The notes under the pieces were generated by a model. That model was not told the DNA's origin, made no database searches, and worked only from the letters and a program-made list of their open reading frames with translations. DNA of 64,000 nucleotides from Crocinitomicaceae bacterium (GTDB taxonomy: Bacteria; Bacteroidota; Bacteroidia; Flavobacteriales_G; Salibacteraceae), in assembly GCA_002713215.1 (NCBI GenBank), contig PAVO01000014.1:62001-126000 (forward strand), given 5' to 3'. Both the position numbers and the translations under genes were made by a program. Shown here one piece after another: positions 3,514 to 62,498 of the stretch (position 1 is the first letter of the stretch; the number at the start of each line of letters is the position of its first letter).

Positions 3514-5634
3514 ATGAAAGAATACATGTCAAAGCCGTTCATTTATTTCGTTATATGTATTTTATTGGGTACGGTTAGCACTTCTCATGCTCAGGTTGAT
3601 GCTCCTCAATTGCGCTGTATTGCTGTGGAAGACAATGGAGACATTACATTAACCTGGATTCCACCAGCCGATCCGTTGGGCCAATTTTTAAATTATTACA
3701 TATTTTCTTCGGTTAATGGAACTCCATTTGTTCAGTTTGGTAATGCAATTCCAAACCGTTTACAGAATACGGAGACTCTAATAGGAGTTGGGTTCCCCAA
3801 ACCAACATTGAAAAATTTTCGATACTACATTGTTACAGAATACAACGATGGCAGCACGAAATTATCTGTACCATCCGACACCCTAACGGCTATAGAACTT
3901 GACCTTACTGTTGCAGGGAACGTTTCCGGCACGCTCAATTGGAATTTAATGCGAACCAACCCATTGCCTACGTGGGAAAATAAGTACAATTTAAAAAGAA
4001 AGTTGGAAACTGTACCTCCGGCAGTTCCGCCAATAGCCTGGACCGATAAGTTTGCAACTCCTGACTATTCCACAATCACTTTTAAGGATGATGTAGCTCG
4101 ATGCTTAAGTGATATTTCATATCAGATTGAATTGGAGGATGCAAGCGGTTGCATATCGAGGTCAAATCTAGTTAAGGAAAGATTAGAGGATAATGTAGGT
4201 GCAGCTACAATGACTTATGATAGAATTTCAGTTGGCAATGGTCGCAATAACATGTATTGGTCTAAACATCCCGATGGTTCGGTTGTTAAGTACATTTTAA
4301 TTCACATTGACCCTTCCGGAATAGCCAAGCCAATTGATACGGTTTCTTCTACTACATTTTTTTGGTACGATCAGGGACACAGTGCGCAAAATCAAAGACA
4401 ATGTTACGTTATAGCTGCTCTTGATTCTTGCGGGAAATCAAATGGAGGGGGAGTAAAACATTGCACTATCTATTTAAACAGGACTTATGACCCATGTGCT
4501 GGTGAGGTTTATTTGTCCTGGACTCCTTATGAGGGATGGGCCGGTGTTGATAAATATAACATTTATATGGCACTTGATGGAGATACCAACTATACCAAAA
4601 TTGGCACTGTATCCGGCTCCGATACAAGTTATACGGTAAAAAATGTAAATGCTTTAAACACCTATGCATTTTATATTGAAGGAATTGATATAACAGGCAG
4701 GTTTACCAGCAACAGTAACGTGTTGGGTACAAAATTCGATATTCCGGATAGAACAAAGTTTTTACACATTAGGGGGGCTAGTGTTATTTCTGAGGAGGAA
4801 ATTGAATTAAGGATACTAATGGATCGAAAAGCACCCATTAAGCATGTTAATGTATACAGAGGAGTTAAGAGAGAAGGGCCTTTTAAGAAGGTGAGATCTG
4901 TTACTCCACCATTAAGTATACTGGATACTCTTTTTACCGTTCGGGATATTTCAGCAAGGCCAAACCAAATGAATTTTGTTTACTACGTTGAAGTAATAGA
5001 CACGTGTAACATGCCAGTGAAAGTGAGTAATAAGTTTAGGACTATATACTTATCTGGTAATTCCAATAAAGATCAAATGGAGAATAATCTAAAGTGGTCT
5101 GCTAATATTTATGTAGATTCTTCCGCTCAGGAACGGGATGTATATTCTCTCTATCGAGGAATAAACAATGATTATACCCCCGATCCAATTCGTACTTTGT
5201 GGTCAAATCAATTGGCTTATTTAGACAATATATCAAGCGAGATACATAGTGGTGATAAGTTCTGCTATCGATTAAAACTAACTCAGGCACCAAGTGATAC
5301 GTTTGAAATTGCTGATACCAGTGTATCCAATGAAATTTGTTTCAAAATGGAGCCGGATGTATTTATTCCCAATTCTTTTACACCAAATGAAGATGGAATA
5401 AATGAAGTTTGGAGGCCTAAAACCAGTTATATTATTCCTTTTAAAAATTACTCGCTGAAAGTATTTGATCGGTGGGGTAAATTGGCCTTCGAAACTACAA
5501 ATCCGCTGGAAGGCTGGAACGGACAGAGGAATGATGGTGAGGCACCGGTTGGAATTTACGTGTACCGTCTTGAAATTGTAACGGTATATGGAAGTACCAT
5601 TGAACATAGAGGCCGGTTCAACCTTGTAAGGTAA
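3514..5634 (+). CDS. Secreted fibronectin-type repeat protein with T9SS type B sorting domain (copy 1)
   Basis: The 706 residues start with a signal peptide ending near THAQ; a second Met at residue 5 is an equally good start. The body consists of several fibronectin type III-like domains, seen as repeats of LTWxP, YNIY, TxYxVK and YxFYxEG type strands. The last ~85 residues form a gliding-associated type B C-terminal domain (FIPNSFTPNEDGINEVW, VFDRWGKLAFE, GWNG, GIYVYRLE). In this family that domain directs export through the T9SS and attachment at the cell surface. The next gene is a tandem paralog. No catalytic motif is visible, so an adhesive or structural surface role is inferred. Confidence 0.82.
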   Translation: MKEYMSKPFIYFVICILLGTVSTSHAQVDAPQLRCIAVEDNGDITLTWIPPADPLGQFLNYYIFSSVNGTPFVQFGNAIPNRLQNTETLIGVGFPKPTLKNFRYYIVTEYNDGSTKLSVPSDTLTAIELDLTVAGNVSGTLNWNLMRTNPLPTWENKYNLKRKLETVPPAVPPIAWTDKFATPDYSTITFKDDVARCLSDISYQIELEDASGCISRSNLVKERLEDNVGAATMTYDRISVGNGRNNMYWSKHPDGSVVKYILIHIDPSGIAKPIDTVSSTTFFWYDQGHSAQNQRQCYVIAALDSCGKSNGGGVKHCTIYLNRTYDPCAGEVYLSWTPYEGWAGVDKYNIYMALDGDTNYTKIGTVSGSDTSYTVKNVNALNTYAFYIEGIDITGRFTSNSNVLGTKFDIPDRTKFLHIRGASVISEEEIELRILMDRKAPIKHVNVYRGVKREGPFKKVRSVTPPLSILDTLFTVRDISARPNQMNFVYYVEVIDTCNMPVKVSNKFRTIYLSGNSNKDQMENNLKWSANIYVDSSAQERDVYSLYRGINNDYTPDPIRTLWSNQLAYLDNISSEIHSGDKFCYRLKLTQAPSDTFEIADTSVSNEICFKMEPDVFIPNSFTPNEDGINEVWRPKTSYIIPFKNYSLKVFDRWGKLAFETTNPLEGWNGQRNDGEAPVGIYVYRLEIVTVYGSTIEHRGRFNLVR

Positions 5635-5722
5635 ATACAATATTAACCTCTCTTTGCGTTTGGTTTTCATTGATTGGATACCACATTGAAACAATGACCG
5701 ATTTTTAGAGTAAGTGTTTATT

Positions 5723-7849
5723 ATGCCAATGCAATTGTTTTCGCTTTTGTTGATTTTCGTTTTTGGCTTGTTCTCCGTGGCAAAGGCTCAGCTTGCTCCA
5801 CCTGAACTTAGGTGTGTGTCGGTAGAAGACAACGGAGATATTACGTTAACTTGGCTTCCGACTGCTGATCCTAAGGGTCAGTTTTTGAATTATTTTATCT
5901 ATACATCAGTTAATGGTTCAAACTTCACTCCTCCAACCAGTGGAAAGATAACCAATCGATTGCAGAACGTAAAAACCTTTGTTGGAATTAACTTTCCGGG
6001 TCCAACCCTTAAGAATTATAAGTTTTTCATAATTACCGAATATTTTGATGGTGGTATTAAAAATTCCATTCCATCAGATACGCTTACTGTCATTGAATTG
6101 GATTTATCTACGACGGGAATTTTTTCAGGAACTCTTAATTGGAATTTAATGCGAACCAATCCGTTACCCACGTGGGAGGGTAAGTATAACTTGAAGAGAA
6201 AGTTAGAAACTGTGCCTCCTGCGGCGCCTCCAATAGCATGGACTGATAAGTTTGCTACTCCAGATTATTCCACCATCACTTTTAAGGACAATATAGCCCG
6301 ATGTTTAAGTGATATTTCATATCAGATCGAATTGAAGGATGCAAGTGGTTGTATTTCGAAATCGAATGTAGCTAAAGCAAGATTAGAACAAAAAGTAGGG
6401 CCTGCGAAAATGACGTTTGACCAGGTTTCTGTGAATCGTTTTAATGGTTCCACTCAACTAAATTGGTGGGGACATCCCTCTAACCTGGTAACGTCTTACG
6501 GTATTTTTTATGTTGACCCATCGGGCATCAAAGTTCCAATTGACACTGTACCGGCTAGTCAGTTGGTTTATCATGATAGTGATCCCAATCATGATCCAAC
6601 CTTTTCCAGACAATGTTATATAGTTGTAGCTTTCGATTCTTGCGGAAAATCCCAGGGTGGAGGTCAAATGCATTGTACTCCTTATGTAGTTGATTCTGCT
6701 GATGACTGTGCCGGAGAAATATCGTTGTATTGGACCCCATATGTCGGGTGGGCCGAAGTCGAATCTTATGATATTTATATGAGAACGTCCGTTGATAGCA
6801 ATTACCGAAAAATAGGCTCAGCGCCAGGTCGTGATACCAGTTTCGTGGTTAAGAAACTGAATACCCAGATATTGTACACTTTTTACATTGAAGCAAGAGA
6901 TAAATCAGGTAGATTCTTTGGACGTTCCAACCTGAGAGGGGCATCTTTTGATCGAAAAGGTAAACCCAAATTCATAAAATTACGTTCGGCAAGCATAGTG
7001 TCTGATGAAGAGGTTGAGCTAAGAGTTTTATTGGACAGAAAAAAACCATTCAAACGTATTAATATGTACCGGGGGATTAATCAGGATGGCCCTTTCAAAA
7101 AGGTAGCCTCATTGCAACCTCCAACAAAAAATGCAAAAGACACTTTGTTTTCGCTTTTTGATAATAGCGCAAGGCCTTTTCAAATGGGTTACTATTATTA
7201 CCTTGAGGTAATCGATTTATGTGATAATGCGGTCAGAAGGAGCAATAATTTCAGGACCATATTTCTGTCCGGTGAATCAAATAGGTATAGCATGTCGAAT
7301 AGTTTAAATTGGCTAACTAATGTTTCGAGCGATTCTTCGGCAGCTGATAAAGATGTTTATTCGCTTTATAGAGGAATTAGCAAGAACTACAAAAGCGATC
7401 CCATTCGATCGTTGTGGTCCAATGAACCAAGTTATTTGGATGACATTTCTGGAGAAGTTCACAATGGAGATGAATTTTGTTATCGATTAAAATTAGTGCA
7501 GGCACCAAGTGATACCTTTGAAATTGCAGATACCTGTTTATCGAATGAGATTTGTTTTAAGATGGAACCGGATGTATTTATCCCCAACTCATTTACTCCA
7601 AACAGAGATGGAATAAATGAAGTATGGAGGCCAAAAACCAGTTACATAAATCCGTTTAGTAATTATTCGCTTAAGGTATTTGATCGATGGGGTAAACTGG
7701 CTTTCGAAACAATGAGCCCATTGGAAGGCTGGAATGGACAGAGAAATAATGGGGATGCTCCAACTGGAATTTACACTTATCATCTGGAAGTGGTAACGGT
7801 TTATGGGAGTATAATAGAGTACCGGGGGCTTTTTAACCTGGTACGATAA
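5723..7849 (+). CDS. Secreted fibronectin-type repeat protein with T9SS type B sorting domain (copy 2)
   Basis: A paralog of the preceding gene with the same order: signal peptide, fibronectin-type domains, type B sorting domain (PNSFTPNRDGINEVW, FDRWGKLAFE, GWNGQRNNGDAP). I prefer the ATG at 5723, which gives the signal peptide MPMQLFSLLLIF to AKAQ; a GTG nine bases upstream is also in frame. A block around residues 130-210 and the last ~140 residues match copy 1 almost exactly, while the middle is much more diverged. Codons in the conserved blocks differ at many third positions, so the copies are old. It probably shares copy 1's transcript and surface role. Confidence 0.82.
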   Translation: MPMQLFSLLLIFVFGLFSVAKAQLAPPELRCVSVEDNGDITLTWLPTADPKGQFLNYFIYTSVNGSNFTPPTSGKITNRLQNVKTFVGINFPGPTLKNYKFFIITEYFDGGIKNSIPSDTLTVIELDLSTTGIFSGTLNWNLMRTNPLPTWEGKYNLKRKLETVPPAAPPIAWTDKFATPDYSTITFKDNIARCLSDISYQIELKDASGCISKSNVAKARLEQKVGPAKMTFDQVSVNRFNGSTQLNWWGHPSNLVTSYGIFYVDPSGIKVPIDTVPASQLVYHDSDPNHDPTFSRQCYIVVAFDSCGKSQGGGQMHCTPYVVDSADDCAGEISLYWTPYVGWAEVESYDIYMRTSVDSNYRKIGSAPGRDTSFVVKKLNTQILYTFYIEARDKSGRFFGRSNLRGASFDRKGKPKFIKLRSASIVSDEEVELRVLLDRKKPFKRINMYRGINQDGPFKKVASLQPPTKNAKDTLFSLFDNSARPFQMGYYYYLEVIDLCDNAVRRSNNFRTIFLSGESNRYSMSNSLNWLTNVSSDSSAADKDVYSLYRGISKNYKSDPIRSLWSNEPSYLDDISGEVHNGDEFCYRLKLVQAPSDTFEIADTCLSNEICFKMEPDVFIPNSFTPNRDGINEVWRPKTSYINPFSNYSLKVFDRWGKLAFETMSPLEGWNGQRNNGDAPTGIYTYHLEVVTVYGSIIEYRGLFNLVR

Positions 7850-54602: not shown

Positions 54603-55558
54603 CTATTTCTTTCTTTTTAATACGCGATCTACTGCGCCAACAATGTCTTTTGAGCCACAACCATATTTATCCAGTAATTCGTCCGGTTTTCCGCTTTGTC
54701 CAAATTGATCATTTACCCCAACAAACTCCTGAGGTACCGGGTTTTTTCGGGCCAATACTCCGGCGACTGACTCACCCAAACCTCCAAAAACTTGGTGCTC
54801 TTCAGCTGTAACTACACATCCCGTTTTAGCAATAGATTCCAGGATCGCATCTTCATCAATTGGTTTGATGGTATGTATGTTTATGATTTCTGCGCTTATT
54901 CCTTTCTTTTCGAGTTCCTCACCGGCTTCAATCGCTTTCCAGACCAAATGTCCGGTCGCAACAATGGTTACATCCGTTCCGGGGTTGATCATTACTGCCT
55001 TCCCAATTTCAAATTCTTGATCTTCAGGCGTGAAGTTTGCCACTTTAGGCCTTCCAAACCTAAGGTAGACTGGCCCTTTATGTTTGGCAATTGCTAGCGT
55101 TGCAGCCTTGGTTTGGTTGAAGTCGCAAGGGTTAATAACTACCATGCCTGGAAGCATCTTCATCATACCAATATCTTCCAGAATTTGGTGGGTAGCCCCG
55201 TCTTCTCCTAGCGTTAGTCCGGCATGAGAAGCACAAATTTTTACGTTTTTTCCTGAATAGGCAATACTTTGTCGTATTTGATCGTACACCCTGCCTGTAG
55301 AGAAATTTGCAAAGGTTCCCGTAAACGGAATCTTGTCTCCAATGGTTAGCCCGGCTGCAAACCCCATCATGTTTGCTTCTGAAATTCCCATTTGAAAAAA
55401 ACGGTCGGGATACTTGTCTGCAAAGTCATTCATTTTAAGCGATCCGGTCAAATCAGCACAAAGTGCTACCACATTTTCATTTTTTCTCCAAGTTCTGAAA
55501 GTCCTTTTCCAAATCCTGAACGGGTGTCTTTATTTCCAGTATTTTCGAATTTTGTCAT
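54603..55558 (-). CDS. Transketolase C-terminal subunit with an apparent one-base frameshift
   Basis: This subunit carries the pyrimidine-binding and C-terminal domains of a split transketolase, which moves two-carbon units between sugar phosphates. Conserved parts are [52 protein letters not shown] and [12 protein letters not shown]. The natural start is the ATG at 55558 ([20 protein letters not shown]), but that frame hits TAG at 55466-55468. One extra A in the A6 run (plus-strand T run 55480-55485) would join both parts with normal homology. Read alone, the main frame starts at a GTG at 55472. A sequencing slip, true mutation or programmed shift are possible. The VWA gene ends 3 nt upstream. 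Confidence 0.8.
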
Positions 55559-55561
55559 CGC

Positions 55562-56932
55562 TTATAAATTTAAAGAAGCAGAACTTCCTTCAATAATTTC
55601 AATCTCTTTTTCAATGGTAAACATGGAACTCTTGGCTCCTTTGGGGCGGTACAATACAATGTATTTACCCGGAAGCATATAGTAGCTTTCACGGCTTAAA
55701 TTCACATTAAGGCGAACTACTAATTCCAATTTTCCGTTTTTTCGCTGGTAGATTTCGCCCATTCCCTTCTGGCCCTTATTAACGGTTAAAAGCCCTGGCG
55801 TGGGGATGTTTACCGTGGTTGTATGGCTTTGACTTACAGCAATATCATTAATTCGTAGTCTGGGGTGAGTCAAAACTTCAAGGTCGTAGAATCCGGTGAC
55901 ATATTTCACGGTACTTTTTAATGCCTGGACGTTAATGGTTTCAAAGCTTCCGTGTTTTCTTACTAAGGTCAAAATCTCTTCCCTGGAATTAAATCGCGGC
56001 GACTTCAAATAAATAAAGCCTTGCGGAGCGTCAACGGAAAGAATATTGTGTTTTCCGGGAATCATTACTAAACTATCTTTCCTTACCGGTGGTATGGTAT
56101 GGGCTACCAAATCGTAGGTAAATGAAGCCTCCAGGTCAAGAGTGTCGGGATTTCCATAAGCATTCATGGTATGAACAAAGCTGAAAATTTCCCGCTTGCT
56201 ACTGTGATCATATAGTGTAACTCCAACATTGGTTTCCGAGGGATTTTTGCCAGCATCTACCAAATTAACCTGGGCCGTTGTTTTGTTAAGCGCTTGAGAG
56301 ATTACAATTCCCAGCACATTCTTAAATGTAGCTTCATTGTTTACATTATAGAACGTACCCAGGCATTCGAATGACTTCCTAAAATTCATGTCCAAGCCGA
56401 TACCAATAACGAAGGGCTTAAGAATAATTCCCTTGCGTTGTAATTTCATGGAGATCGTACAGGGGTCTCCACCACATTCTTCAACACCGTCAGTGATTAG
56501 AATTATAATATTCCTACAGGTTGAGCAAGGAGTAAAATCACCAGATGCTTTTTCCAGGGTCATAGCAATTGGCGTAGTACCCATTGGAGTAATTTCACCA
56601 AGTTTTGTCTTTACTTTTTCATGATTGTTATATGCGAATGGCACCTCAAGTTTGGTATCGTTGCAATCCTGCCCATGGCGATAGTTCTTTTGGTGACCAT
56701 ATACTCGAAGAGCAATTTGCAGGTTTTCGACGCTTTTAAGGCTATCAACAGTCTGGGTAAGTAGTTTCTTCGCAATCTGGTGTTTTCTGCCGTTATTCCA
56801 GCTTCCATTCATTGAATTAGAAGCATCATAAATAAAAAGAATTCGGGTTGTAAAGTCAGCGTTTCCCTGCGCAAAGGTGCTTGCAAAGAAGCTGTTTAGC
56901 AAAAAGAGAACTACGAGAATTTGTCTTAGCAT
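55562..56932 (-). CDS. Secreted von Willebrand factor A-domain protein
   Basis: The 456-residue protein has a signal peptide (through TFAQ) and a VWA domain (about 29-210). The metal-dependent adhesion site has DASNSM (DxSxS), Thr in PMGTTP and Asp in ITDGVEECGGDPC. After it, four or five small beta-rich modules (about 220-440) follow, with no known signature. Cysteines within the VWA part suggest an oxidising compartment. VWA proteins bind protein partners through a divalent metal. It lies 16 nt after the transketolase N-terminal gene and 3 nt before the C-terminal gene, so it is in the same transcript, an odd place for a secreted protein. Confidence 0.87.
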   Translation of the reverse strand: MLRQILVVLFLLNSFFASTFAQGNADFTTRILFIYDASNSMNGSWNNGRKHQIAKKLLTQTVDSLKSVENLQIALRVYGHQKNYRHGQDCNDTKLEVPFAYNNHEKVKTKLGEITPMGTTPIAMTLEKASGDFTPCSTCRNIIILITDGVEECGGDPCTISMKLQRKGIILKPFVIGIGLDMNFRKSFECLGTFYNVNNEATFKNVLGIVISQALNKTTAQVNLVDAGKNPSETNVGVTLYDHSSKREIFSFVHTMNAYGNPDTLDLEASFTYDLVAHTIPPVRKDSLVMIPGKHNILSVDAPQGFIYLKSPRFNSREEILTLVRKHGSFETINVQALKSTVKYVTGFYDLEVLTHPRLRINDIAVSQSHTTTVNIPTPGLLTVNKGQKGMGEIYQRKNGKLELVVRLNVNLSRESYYMLPGKYIVLYRPKGAKSSMFTIEKEIEIIEGSSASLNL

Positions 56933-56948
56933 TAACTACAATTGAATA

Positions 56949-57794
56949 CTAGTAATCGCCTAGAGTTTCTTCAAGCTGTTCCAATGCCTGTGCCAACTGT
57001 TCATCATTGGGCGCAACCCCGTGCCATTTGTGGGTTCCCATCATAAAGTCTACACCGTTGCCCATTTCTGTTTTCATGATAATTATAACCGGTTTTTCTT
57101 TACCGCAAAGCGCCTTTGCCAGTTTTAAATTGCTCAGCACATTGGTCATATCATTTCCTTCCATTTCAAGTACCTGCCATCCAAAGGCTTCCCATTTGGC
57201 TTTCAGGTCACCGAGGCCCATTACGTCATCAACGTCACCATCAATTTGTCGCCTGTTATAATCGACAACGCCAATAATGTTATCTACTTTTTTAGCAGCA
57301 CCATATATTGCGGCCTCCCATACCTGGCCTTCTTGTAACTCACCATCACCCATAAGTACGTATACCAGGTTTGGATCGTTGTTCAGTTTTTTCGTTGAAG
57401 CAGCACCCAGGGCAGCAGATAATCCCTGACCTAAACTACCTGAAGCGATTCTTACGCCAGGTAAACCTTCGTGAGTAGTTGGGTGGCCCTGAAGTCGTGT
57501 ATCCAGTTTTCTAAACGTAGCTAATTCCTTTACCGGGAAATACCCGTTTCGGGCAAGAACCGAATACCATACAGGACTTATATGTCCATTGGATAAAAAG
57601 AAAAGATCCTGTCCAACGCCATTCATGTCCCAATTTTCAGGGCTGTGGTTTAGAATTTCTCCATACAACGCAACCAGAAAATCCGTACAGCCTAAAGAAC
57701 CTCCCGGGTGTCCAGAACTAACGGCATGCACCATTCTTACAATATCTCTTCGGGTTTGGCTTGCTAGTCTTTCTAAGTGCTGTATATCTGCCAT
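56949..57794 (-). CDS. Transketolase N-terminal subunit
   Basis: The 281-residue protein is the thiamine diphosphate-binding half of a split transketolase. The ThDP motif starts GDGELQEGQVWEAA and ends with VVDYNRRQIDG. SSGHPGGSLGCTDFLVALY and GSLGQGLSAALGAA are other landmarks. It works with the C-terminal subunit, whose gene follows after the VWA gene instead of directly. Together they serve the non-oxidative pentose phosphate pathway. A terminator of the upstream gene lies about 80 nt before its start. Confidence 0.94.
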   Translation of the reverse strand: MADIQHLERLASQTRRDIVRMVHAVSSGHPGGSLGCTDFLVALYGEILNHSPENWDMNGVGQDLFFLSNGHISPVWYSVLARNGYFPVKELATFRKLDTRLQGHPTTHEGLPGVRIASGSLGQGLSAALGAASTKKLNNDPNLVYVLMGDGELQEGQVWEAAIYGAAKKVDNIIGVVDYNRRQIDGDVDDVMGLGDLKAKWEAFGWQVLEMEGNDMTNVLSNLKLAKALCGKEKPVIIIMKTEMGNGVDFMMGTHKWHGVAPNDEQLAQALEQLEETLGDY

Positions 57795-57872: not shown

Positions 57873-57899
57873 CAAAAAAAGAGGGCGAAGCCTCTTTTG
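57873..57899 (-). terminator. Terminator between the decayed gene and transketolase
   Basis: On the minus strand AAAAGAGG and CCTCTTTT form an 8-bp stem with a 6-nt loop followed by a T run (plus-strand A run 57874-57880). It lies 9 nt past the final stop of the decayed gene. Confidence 0.7.
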
Positions 57900-57907
57900 T
57901 ACTTAAG

Positions 57908-59581
57908 TTATTTAGCAATACAGCGTCCCAATTTAATAGTCTTCTTTTTTTGGCCAAGAATAATGAAGCCCGGATCATCATCTAATGGTACACATCTTCT
58001 AACCTGAGTGAAAGTGGCCTCTTCTTTAACATTGTATTAATATTTTCTGCTCAAGTTACCTTCGTTATCAATTCTTGCTAAACAGGTAACAGCATTGTCA
58101 CCACCTTTCTTTGATTTTACGATTTTTTTTGGGTTATATTCAGTATGATTTTTCAAATGATCGTTATACAATATATAGATATTACCATCCTTCGTAGTGT
58201 AATTATAAGAACTAAATGGACTAGCGTTATTAATGGCCTCTTGATCCAAATGCAAAGTGTTAATACCATTATACCCACCCCATGGATTACTAAACGCACT
58301 TCCTAACCTATTAAACATTGCTTCAAATCCATAAGGACTTGAACTAGTAGATGTATAGTTATATTTAGGAACCCGCGAAATCCACAATACATTACCTTCA
58401 AAGTCTAATTTTATAACCATCACATCCATAAAATTATAGTGATATGTTGTATTAGAAGATCCGGAGGCGGAGTAGGAGCTTAACACAGTTATATGGAATT
58501 GTTCACTCACTATAAAAATAGCCTCATCATTAACCTCTATGTTTCGGATATCATAATTTCTAAACTCAACCTCTTTGCCTGTTTCTTCCTTCTTATTAGC
58601 TCGTTTTTCGCTTTTTTCTGAACTGAATCGAGTTATCTCATCTACGGTAAATTCGTAATGCTTTATATCCATTAATCCTTGAACTTCAATATCTTCCCTT
58701 ACCATGAAAATTCCATTTGCAGCATTTTCAGATTTTGTGCTATAAAAACCTGCTAAAATGAGTCCATTATCAGGTGCAAATGTCAATTGAATATCAGAAG
58801 TATGATACCCGCCTAATTCTAATTGATAACGGGTTACTTCTCCATTACGCAGGACGGCAGCAGTATAAAAAACATTAGGCTTTCCTTTCTCACGATCTTC
58901 ACTATCTTTTACCCTTCTTGCAACAATAGCAGCATCACCATTTGCATTGAATTTGAAGTCCATGGTATTCAGCGCCTCATTATTTTCAAGTTCGATTTGG
59001 TCTGTGTAGACTTCGTTTAATTCTGTGTCCAATATTTTTAGTTCATACCAAAATTTGGTTAAATCAGTAGTGCCATTATTATGCCCCACATAGAGCCTAG
59101 AGTAATCCGGTGAAACTTCTATGTCTTCTGTTTCCTTATTAGCGCTTCTTAGAAAATTCATCTTTGTTATTAATTTGGGATCTCCTTCCTTAGACAAAGA
59201 TTCTGGATCAATAGCTTGAACATAGTAGTAGAATTTTTCTTCGTTTTCTTCTTTTATTTTAGATAGGACAAATATTTTATCACCTAATCTAAAAATCCTT
59301 TCATAATAAAATCTCCCTTTTTTAGCCTTATGCTCAATTTAAACAGTACTTCTTGAAGCTTCATTCAGTTTTATATCTGTTTTAAGCAAGTTTACTTCAA
59401 CGCCATCCTTCCACAGATGAACCAAGGATCCGTTTCCAAAATCATAAGTATTTATAAATTTTCCTTTGGGGACTTTTATAAACCCTCCCCATTCTACCAC
59501 CGCTAGATTGTTATTGGATTGGCTAATTGAAGTTAAGTTAATTCCCAATGCGATAAGAATCAATGTAATGGACTTTTTTAT
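57908..59581 (-). pseudogene. Decayed paralog of the secreted protein at 59642-61204 (start lost, two in-frame TAA)
   Basis: The whole stretch aligns in one frame with the intact neighbour, from a signal peptide-like start (KKSITLILIALG) to LGQKKKTIKLGRC near the end. Three substitutions break it. The expected ATG reads ATA at 59579-59581. TAA at 59339-59341 replaces a Lys codon, and TAA at 58037-58039 replaces a Leu codon (intact copy: GYLYNV). There is no frameshift. The longest remaining open stretch, 58037-59197, has 386 codons. The unchanged frame suggests recent loss. Read-through or use of an internal start cannot be excluded. Confidence 0.8.
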
Positions 59582-59641: not shown

Positions 59642-61204
59642 TTATTCTTCTTTAGTTGTTACACGTGCCAGCTTAAATTTCTTCTTTTTCTGAGCAATAA
59701 TCATAAATCCTGTATCTTCATCCAAGGCAGCACTTTGTTTCACCTTTGTAAATAAAGCTTCTTCAGCAACATTATAAAGGTAACCTCGCTTCATGTTTCC
59801 TTCATTATCAATTTGAGCTAAACAAGTAACTGACTTTTTACCACCCCATGGGGTTTTAAGAATTCTGCGTGGGTTATATTCTATGTGATTTCCAATATGA
59901 TCATTGTATAATAGATAAACACTATTTGAATTGTAGTCATAGTTAAAGGAACTATAGCGTCCACCATCATTTTTGGAATAGTTGTACTTGGGAACCCGTG
60001 CCATCCATTCCACCTCTCCTTCAGTAGTAAATTTAAGGGCCATTACATCCATATAGTAATAGTGGAACGTAGTTGTTACCATTCCATTTGAAGAACGGTT
60101 AACCTCAACACGCATCCAATATTGTTCAGCTAAAAGGAATACCCCATTATCGGTTTCAAACAAATCATGAATGGTATAGTCGTTTAATTCAATTTCACGT
60201 CCTTTATCCTCTTTCTTTTTGGCCTTTTTTTCCTGTCTTTCAGATGCAAATTTCATGATTTCTTCGACGGTAAACTCTTTGTACATGGTTTCTCCCAATT
60301 CATCTCCACTTATATCTTCTCGAATGAAGAAAACCCCATTAACACGATTTGCAGCATTTGGGCTGTAGTATCCTGATATAATCAAGTCCCCATTTTTACC
60401 GAACGTAATTCCCGCGCCTGAAATAAAATTACTACCCAAGTCCACCTTATACCTTTGGACTTCTCCGTTTCTCATAACTGCCGCAGTATAATAATAGTTA
60501 GGTTTATCCTTTTCACGATCTTTCTTTTCAATCACTCTTTTTGCCAGAACTGCTACATCTCCATTTTTCCAAAAATCAATATAGGCCGTATTTAGGGCTT
60601 CGTCGTTTTCTATTTCAATCTTGTCAGCATAGATGGATTCAAGTTCAGCATCGAAAATTTCCAATTCGTACCAGAATTTTTTTAGATCTCGTGTTCCATT
60701 ATTGTGTCCAAAGTACATTTTGGAATAATCAGGAGAAACAACAAAATCTTCTATTTCTTTAAAAGAACTTCTTAAAAAGGTCATTTCACCAACCTGGACC
60801 GGTTCTCCTACAATTTCTAATGAATTGGGATCTATGGTTTGAACGTAATAGTAAAACTTCTCTTCCTTTTTTACTTTAATTTTACTCATTAGGCAAAGTT
60901 TATCCCCAAGCCTGAAGATACTTTCAAAGTAATATTTTCCTTTTCTGGCGGCATGTTCAATTTTAAGTTCCCTTTGCTTTATTAAATTCATGTTTCCAGT
61001 AGTACTAATGATATGAAGTTCAACTCCATCTCTCCATACATTCAAATACAAGTCATCGGTGAATCGTTGAGTTCCCCAAAAAATGCCAGGAGCTACTTTC
61101 ATTTCAGTACCCCATTGGATTTCAGCCCAGTCCAACTCTGATTGTTGAGCAAATAAATTAGTAGATAGAATTATTGTAATGATTGCAATAAGAATTTTGT
61201 TCAT
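59642..61204 (-). CDS. Secreted protein of unknown function (intact paralog)
   Basis: The 520-residue protein has a signal peptide (MNKILIAIITIIL to FAQQ). The mature part is made of repeated beta strands such as LYLNVWRDGVELHII, FYYYVQTIDPNSLE, SPDYSKMYFGHNNG and NYYYTAAVMRNGEV, which looks like a beta-propeller. There is a charged spacer near 330-345 (RQEKKAKKKEDKG). I do not recognise a family or an enzyme motif, and I see no T9SS tail. A decayed copy lies directly downstream. It probably acts in the periplasm or outside the cell. Confidence 0.75.
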   Translation of the reverse strand: MNKILIAIITIILSTNLFAQQSELDWAEIQWGTEMKVAPGIFWGTQRFTDDLYLNVWRDGVELHIISTTGNMNLIKQRELKIEHAARKGKYYFESIFRLGDKLCLMSKIKVKKEEKFYYYVQTIDPNSLEIVGEPVQVGEMTFLRSSFKEIEDFVVSPDYSKMYFGHNNGTRDLKKFWYELEIFDAELESIYADKIEIENDEALNTAYIDFWKNGDVAVLAKRVIEKKDREKDKPNYYYTAAVMRNGEVQRYKVDLGSNFISGAGITFGKNGDLIISGYYSPNAANRVNGVFFIREDISGDELGETMYKEFTVEEIMKFASERQEKKAKKKEDKGREIELNDYTIHDLFETDNGVFLLAEQYWMRVEVNRSSNGMVTTTFHYYYMDVMALKFTTEGEVEWMARVPKYNYSKNDGGRYSSFNYDYNSNSVYLLYNDHIGNHIEYNPRRILKTPWGGKKSVTCLAQIDNEGNMKRGYLYNVAEEALFTKVKQSAALDEDTGFMIIAQKKKKFKLARVTTKEE

Positions 61205-61400: not shown

Positions 61401-62498
61401 ATGGCTTTGAAGTGTGGTATCGTTGGACTTCCAAATGTAGGAAAATCAACTCTTTTTAATTGTTTAAGTAGCGCTAAAGCACAATCGGCTAACTTTCCAT
61501 TTTGTACCATTGAACCTAACGTTGGTGTCATCACGGTTCCGGACAATCGGTTAACTGCACTTTCAGAGCATGTCAATCCCGAAAAAATTGTTCCTACAAC
61601 CGTTGAAATAGTAGACATTGCCGGATTGGTAAAGGGTGCGAGTAAGGGAGAAGGGCTTGGAAATCAATTTTTGGGAAACATTAGAGAGTGTGATGCCATC
61701 ATTCATGTGTTACGGTGTTTTGAGGATGGTAACATTGTACATGTTGATGGGTCGGTTGACCCGGCAAGGGATAAAGATGTAATTGACACTGAACTACAAC
61801 TAAAAGACCTTGAAACGGTTGAGAAGAACCTAGAAAAGGCCAAGAAAATGGCGCGCACCGGTGATAAAATGTTCAAAAAATCGGTTGAAGTATTAGAAAT
61901 GTATCAGTCTCACCTTGAACAAGGTAAGTCAGCCCGTTCATTGGAACTTGATGATAAGGCGAAGGAGTTGGTAAGTGATATGATGCTACTGACTAATAAA
62001 CCGGTTCTATATGTGTGTAATGTCGATGAAGCTTCTGCGGTTTCGGGTAATGCTTTTACGCAAAAAGTCGAAGAACTGGTAGCTGACGAAAAATGTGAGG
62101 TTATTTACCTCTGTGCCTCAATAGAGTCTGATATTTCAGAGTTTGATACTTATGAGGAAAAACAAATGTTTTTGGAAGAAATGGGATTGTCAGAACCCGG
62201 TGTTAATACACTTATAGCAAGCGCTTATAAACTCCTGCAATTGGAAACCTATTTTACGGCAGGGGTAAAAGAAGTTAGGGCCTGGACAATCCATAAAGGG
62301 ATGACTGCTCCTAAAGCCGCAGGAGTAATTCATACTGATTTTGAAAAAGGATTTATACGCGCCGAAGTCATTAAGTATGACGATTTTGTTCAACTGGGTT
62401 CTGAAAGCGCCTGCCGCGACGCAGGGAAACTTCATGTTGAAGGAAAGGAATACATTGTTGAAGATGGTGATATCATGCATTTTAGATTCAACGTATAG
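61401..62498 (+). CDS. ychF: Ribosome-binding ATPase YchF (OLA1 family)
   Basis: YchF is an Obg-related P-loop protein that prefers ATP and binds ribosomes; in E. coli it affects the oxidative stress response. The 365-residue length is standard. It has the P-loop GLPNVGKST, switch regions NFPFCTIEPNVGVI and DIAGLVKGASKGEGLGNQF, a coiled-coil insertion with many Lys (about 120-200) and the C-terminal TGS domain (RAWTIHKGMTAPKAAGVIH, GDIMHFRFNV). Start chosen at the ATG giving MALKCGIVG. It stands alone with its own promoter box. Confidence 0.97.
   Translation: MALKCGIVGLPNVGKSTLFNCLSSAKAQSANFPFCTIEPNVGVITVPDNRLTALSEHVNPEKIVPTTVEIVDIAGLVKGASKGEGLGNQFLGNIRECDAIIHVLRCFEDGNIVHVDGSVDPARDKDVIDTELQLKDLETVEKNLEKAKKMARTGDKMFKKSVEVLEMYQSHLEQGKSARSLELDDKAKELVSDMMLLTNKPVLYVCNVDEASAVSGNAFTQKVEELVADEKCEVIYLCASIESDISEFDTYEEKQMFLEEMGLSEPGVNTLIASAYKLLQLETYFTAGVKEVRAWTIHKGMTAPKAAGVIHTDFEKGFIRAEVIKYDDFVQLGSESACRDAGKLHVEGKEYIVEDGDIMHFRFNV

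Follow-up and report, generated by a model that had tools for sequence, protein, structure and literature searches.

A probable, fairly recent gene death in an old tandem pair between a transketolase/vWA cluster and ychF

A reading frame that lacks a start codon and is interrupted by two in-frame stops beside an intact paralog raises the questions of whether the gene is dead, whether any part of it is still under selection, and how the age of its death compares with that of the duplication. We examined such a pair in a 64-kb stretch of contig PAVO01000014.1 from a Crocinitomicaceae bacterium (assembly GCA_002713215.1), which is referred to here as the window and is numbered from its first letter. 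The decayed frame was designated copy B and its neighbor copy A. We put the probability at roughly 0.83 that B is an ordinary gene that was inactivated fairly recently and belongs to an old tandem pair occupying a variable site. The two copies and the lesions in B are located as follows.

57908..59581, minus strand: copy B, decayed reading frame of 558 codons including the terminal TAA, recognized by homology to A and a profile match
59579..59581, minus strand: ATA at the start-codon position of B (codon 1), read from the sequence
59339..59341, minus strand: in-frame TAA at B codon 81, read from the sequence
58037..58039, minus strand: in-frame TAA at B codon 515, read from the sequence
59642..61204, minus strand: copy A, intact paralog of 520 amino acids with an N-terminal hydrophobic helix, from the open reading frame and a predicted structure

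The sequence-only reading had described ATA in place of ATG and TAA codons at a lysine and a leucine position beside an intact paralog, and each of these observations held. The ATA occupies minus-strand positions 59581-59579, the two stops are codons 81 and 515 of B, and A is undisrupted. The start column holds methionine, and the codon 515 column leucine, in at least 80% of the 37 other homologs; the residue at the latter is also leucine in A and in genome G009, and at codon 81 A has lysine, G009 glutamate, and G008 serine. The ATA is preceded, as far as the nearest upstream in-frame stop, by no ATG, GTG, or TTG in the same frame. The full product of B is thus blocked by the ATA start and by both TAA codons, even though the reading frame continues without a frameshift over its whole extent and is homologous to A over its full length (48.5% amino acid identity over 515 aligned residues). 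A family profile matched B along its length with both TAA codons inside the match (E = 3.5e-244), which places these stops within a real gene homolog. Recoding of TAA is an unlikely explanation; TAA serves as the ordinary stop and terminates both copies.

Relatives of A and B were found in 13 of 35 genomes of the taxonomic family, and a profile search of a class sample gave matches at E <= 1e-15 in 134 of 395 genomes. By profile search and alignment, A and B are members of this exported class family of about 520 to 550 amino acids, for which there is no Pfam or NCBIfam model. The relatives compared come from other genera and from the bacterium's own genome, which is the only representative of its genus in the comparison and contains further, more distant family members, none with stops inside. 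Orthologs sharing the same separate frames, the finding that the sequence-only reading had set against itself, were looked for and are absent: among the matches listed from the family and class genomes, none of them from B's genus, internal stops occur only in B. An anciently split gene was rejected, since none of the homologs listed is split by stops. Orthologs of B were also sought in two scans of genome contigs, one of them negative and the other yielding a distant MAG locus at 26% identity, and in one scan of viral contigs, which gave nothing. Tandem pairs of this family are also present in G003 and G004. Another pair of similar genes in tandem, both intact, occurs in the window at 3514-7849 (706 and 711 amino acids).

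Copy A matched no entry in Pfam, NCBIfam, or the PDB sequences. Its structure model (mean pLDDT, 86.6; pTM, 0.86) consists almost entirely of beta structure apart from a hydrophobic helix at the N terminus, and a fold search with the model returned various types of beta-propeller protein, mostly at TM-scores below 0.5. The model therefore points, tentatively, to an exported, all-beta, propeller-like family.

The main rival to the death of B is that the lesions are sequence errors or reflect a mixed-strain consensus, in which case B would be intact in some or all cells. The genome is a draft of 56 contigs with an estimated contamination of 4.39%, and B has no sign of long relaxed constraint, both of which favor this explanation. 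However, it is improbable that errors would produce three independent base differences in one gene, each affecting a start or a stop, and B lacks a frameshift, the usual mark of sequencing error. Furthermore, a scan of the 64 kb for same-frame neighbors revealed no further long gene interrupted by a stop, with thresholds that miss short end pieces and hence left B itself unflagged. General decay or error across the window was rejected, the other same-frame neighbors that were flagged being separate genes. Errors in the reads or a mixture of strains at these three positions are accordingly considered unlikely.

If B is a dead gene, the age of the pair and the age of the death can be considered separately. 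The sequence-only reading had B aligning with A without any indel, which is wrong. The absence of a frameshift is the correct description, because B carries an in-frame insertion as well as smaller in-frame changes.

58232..58348, minus strand: 39-codon in-frame insertion of B relative to A (B codons 412-450), in a variable loop, from the alignment

The homolog in G008 is also longer in this loop. The other length changes are two single-codon differences and a C terminus that is two codons shorter in B, so that every length change is a multiple of three. At shared degenerate amino acid positions A and B use the same codon in 107 of 243 cases, which is not above the 115.6 expected under independence, indicating that synonymous sites are saturated. 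Nucleotide identity is 57.4%, compared with 57.3% in a codon-resampled null, and the longest exact tract is 12 nucleotides, compared with a null median of 15. Saturation, together with identity and tract length at the null level, indicates that the duplication is old and that recent gene conversion is not visible. On this sequence comparison, A and B are an ancient tandem paralog pair. The suggestion that B serves as a source for gene conversion with its neighbor found no support: synonymous codons are independent, and the high-identity tracts common to A and B that were sought as the sign of a conversion donor did not appear.

The substitution record of B indicates that its death is younger than the pair. 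Changes specific to A and to B numbered 49 and 46 with G009 as the outgroup, 47 and 35 with G008, 46 and 50 with G038, and 41 and 46 with G027, and the bootstrap interval of the difference in distance included zero with all four outgroups tried. Tree branch lengths were 0.45 for A and 0.51 for B. Differences between the copies by codon position (0.37/0.29/0.63) keep the asymmetry. Of the 44 columns conserved in at least 70% of the 37 other homologs, 32 are retained by A and 28 by B; two of B's losses are its start position and codon 515. The relative-rate test thus detected no faster evolution of B than of A, as expected if the death is recent, and the lack of acceleration implies that B was under constraint for most of its history. 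About 4 to 5% of the possible substitutions in B create a stop. Two nonsense changes therefore correspond to about 39 to 55 substitutions, or 0.023 to 0.033 neutral substitutions per site since death. These data fit a gene that was constrained for a long time and has evolved neutrally for a short time. The earlier description of B as a young pseudogene is correct for its death but not for the duplication, which is old.

The constraint over most of B's history could also be expected if B were still made in full, through translation that starts at ATA and reads through both TAA codons, or were kept as a conversion store for A. ATA is a rare start codon listed in table 11, which counts in favor of full-length synthesis. 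Yet TAA is the ordinary stop here, two readthroughs would be required, and the conversion tracts that a store for A would call for are absent, so that either arrangement is highly improbable.

It is also conceivable that selection acts on the interval between the stops as a truncated gene.

58040..59338, minus strand: open stretch of 433 codons between the two stops of B, from the open reading frame listing

This stretch is open for 433 codons from stop to stop, with gene-like codon usage (0.151 per codon; A, 0.168). The 386-codon frame at 58037-59197, on which the sequence-only reading had proposed selection, begins at a TTG (59197) chosen mechanically by the program that lists reading frames. 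An open frame is expected anyway after so short a time. A selected middle with free ends would give faster ends in B, and the ends are not faster: relative to G009, changes specific to B and to A numbered 4 and 10 outside the stops and 39 and 36 between them, a comparison whose power is low because the death is young. The proposal of selection on this stretch is thus unsupported. According to the structure model, the 386-amino-acid frame is missing the hydrophobic helix at the N terminus and the initial predicted strands, and the class profile search yielded no homolog bounded in this way. It is very unlikely that a truncated gene is being selected here. More generally, it is hard to credit that B is expressed under selection, whether in full at a low level through ATA and readthrough or in truncated form, and B should be annotated as a pseudogene rather than as a 386-amino-acid gene.

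The recent inactivation of B is easier to understand from its site, in which the order of genes is TK-C, a vWA protein, TK-N, B, and A, all on the minus strand, followed by YchF on the plus strand.

54603..57794, minus strand: TK-C, vWA protein, and TK-N genes, the flank downstream of B and a syntenic marker, from open reading frames and site alignment
61401..62498, plus strand: YchF GTPase gene, the upstream flank and other site marker, from open reading frames and site alignment
57877..57898, minus strand: terminator-like hairpin after B (z -3.1)

In four genomes of a related genus (g14), YchF adjoins TK-N at a distance of 127 to 244 bp and the site is empty of family members. G008 has one intact family member between YchF and TK-N, on the opposite strand, and the site is without one in G027, G001, G003, and G005. 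In G009, YchF is absent from the 10 kb examined and the closest family member is elsewhere. From these alignments, family members appear to be variable cargo at the YchF/TK-N site, which makes the loss of one copy unsurprising. The vWA-domain gene lies between the two halves of a split transketolase, and TK-C, vWA, and TK-N occur together in 12 of 14 other aligned sites. No terminator-like hairpin was reported for the 60 bp that separate A from B, which suggests that B may be cotranscribed with A. The hairpin behind the dead B is still well formed.

These results are consistent with the following history. A and B would be old tandem paralogs of an uncharacterized exported, all-beta, probably propeller-like family, located at a variable position that is flanked by the transketolase/vWA cluster and ychF. 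B would have been maintained through most of its history; loss of the start codon and two nonsense mutations would have followed, in an order that we infer, while A stayed intact. The frame of B would have been kept because there was too little time for a frameshift, with no need for a selected remnant. B presumably yields no useful product, and its loss may have been tolerated because A suffices or because the function is dispensable. A saturated old pair in which one copy was recently silenced lets the age of the duplication be cleanly distinguished from that of the gene death; apart from this, the finding is a routine matter of annotation. The widespread family of about 520 to 550 amino acids without a Pfam model is a more useful lead than the death of B.

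Inactivation of B by substitutions only is mildly surprising. The chance of three substitution lesions without a frameshift is 0.03 to 0.05 if indels amount to 10% of substitutions and 0.10 to 0.16 if they amount to 5%. Because the case was chosen for its odd look, this pattern argues only weakly for selection on the frame. In mutation accumulation by Teredinibacter turnerae, indels made up 106 of 885 mutations (PMC5833318), and the mutations forming pseudogenes in Salmonella Paratyphi A were nonsense changes in 6 of 22 cases and indels in 16 of 22 (PMC2658671). B differs from the Salmonella set, in which indels are the commoner lesion, because it was disabled by a start change and two TAA codons. 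It resembles those pseudogenes in being a homologous frame disabled by stops, restricted to a lineage, and recent.
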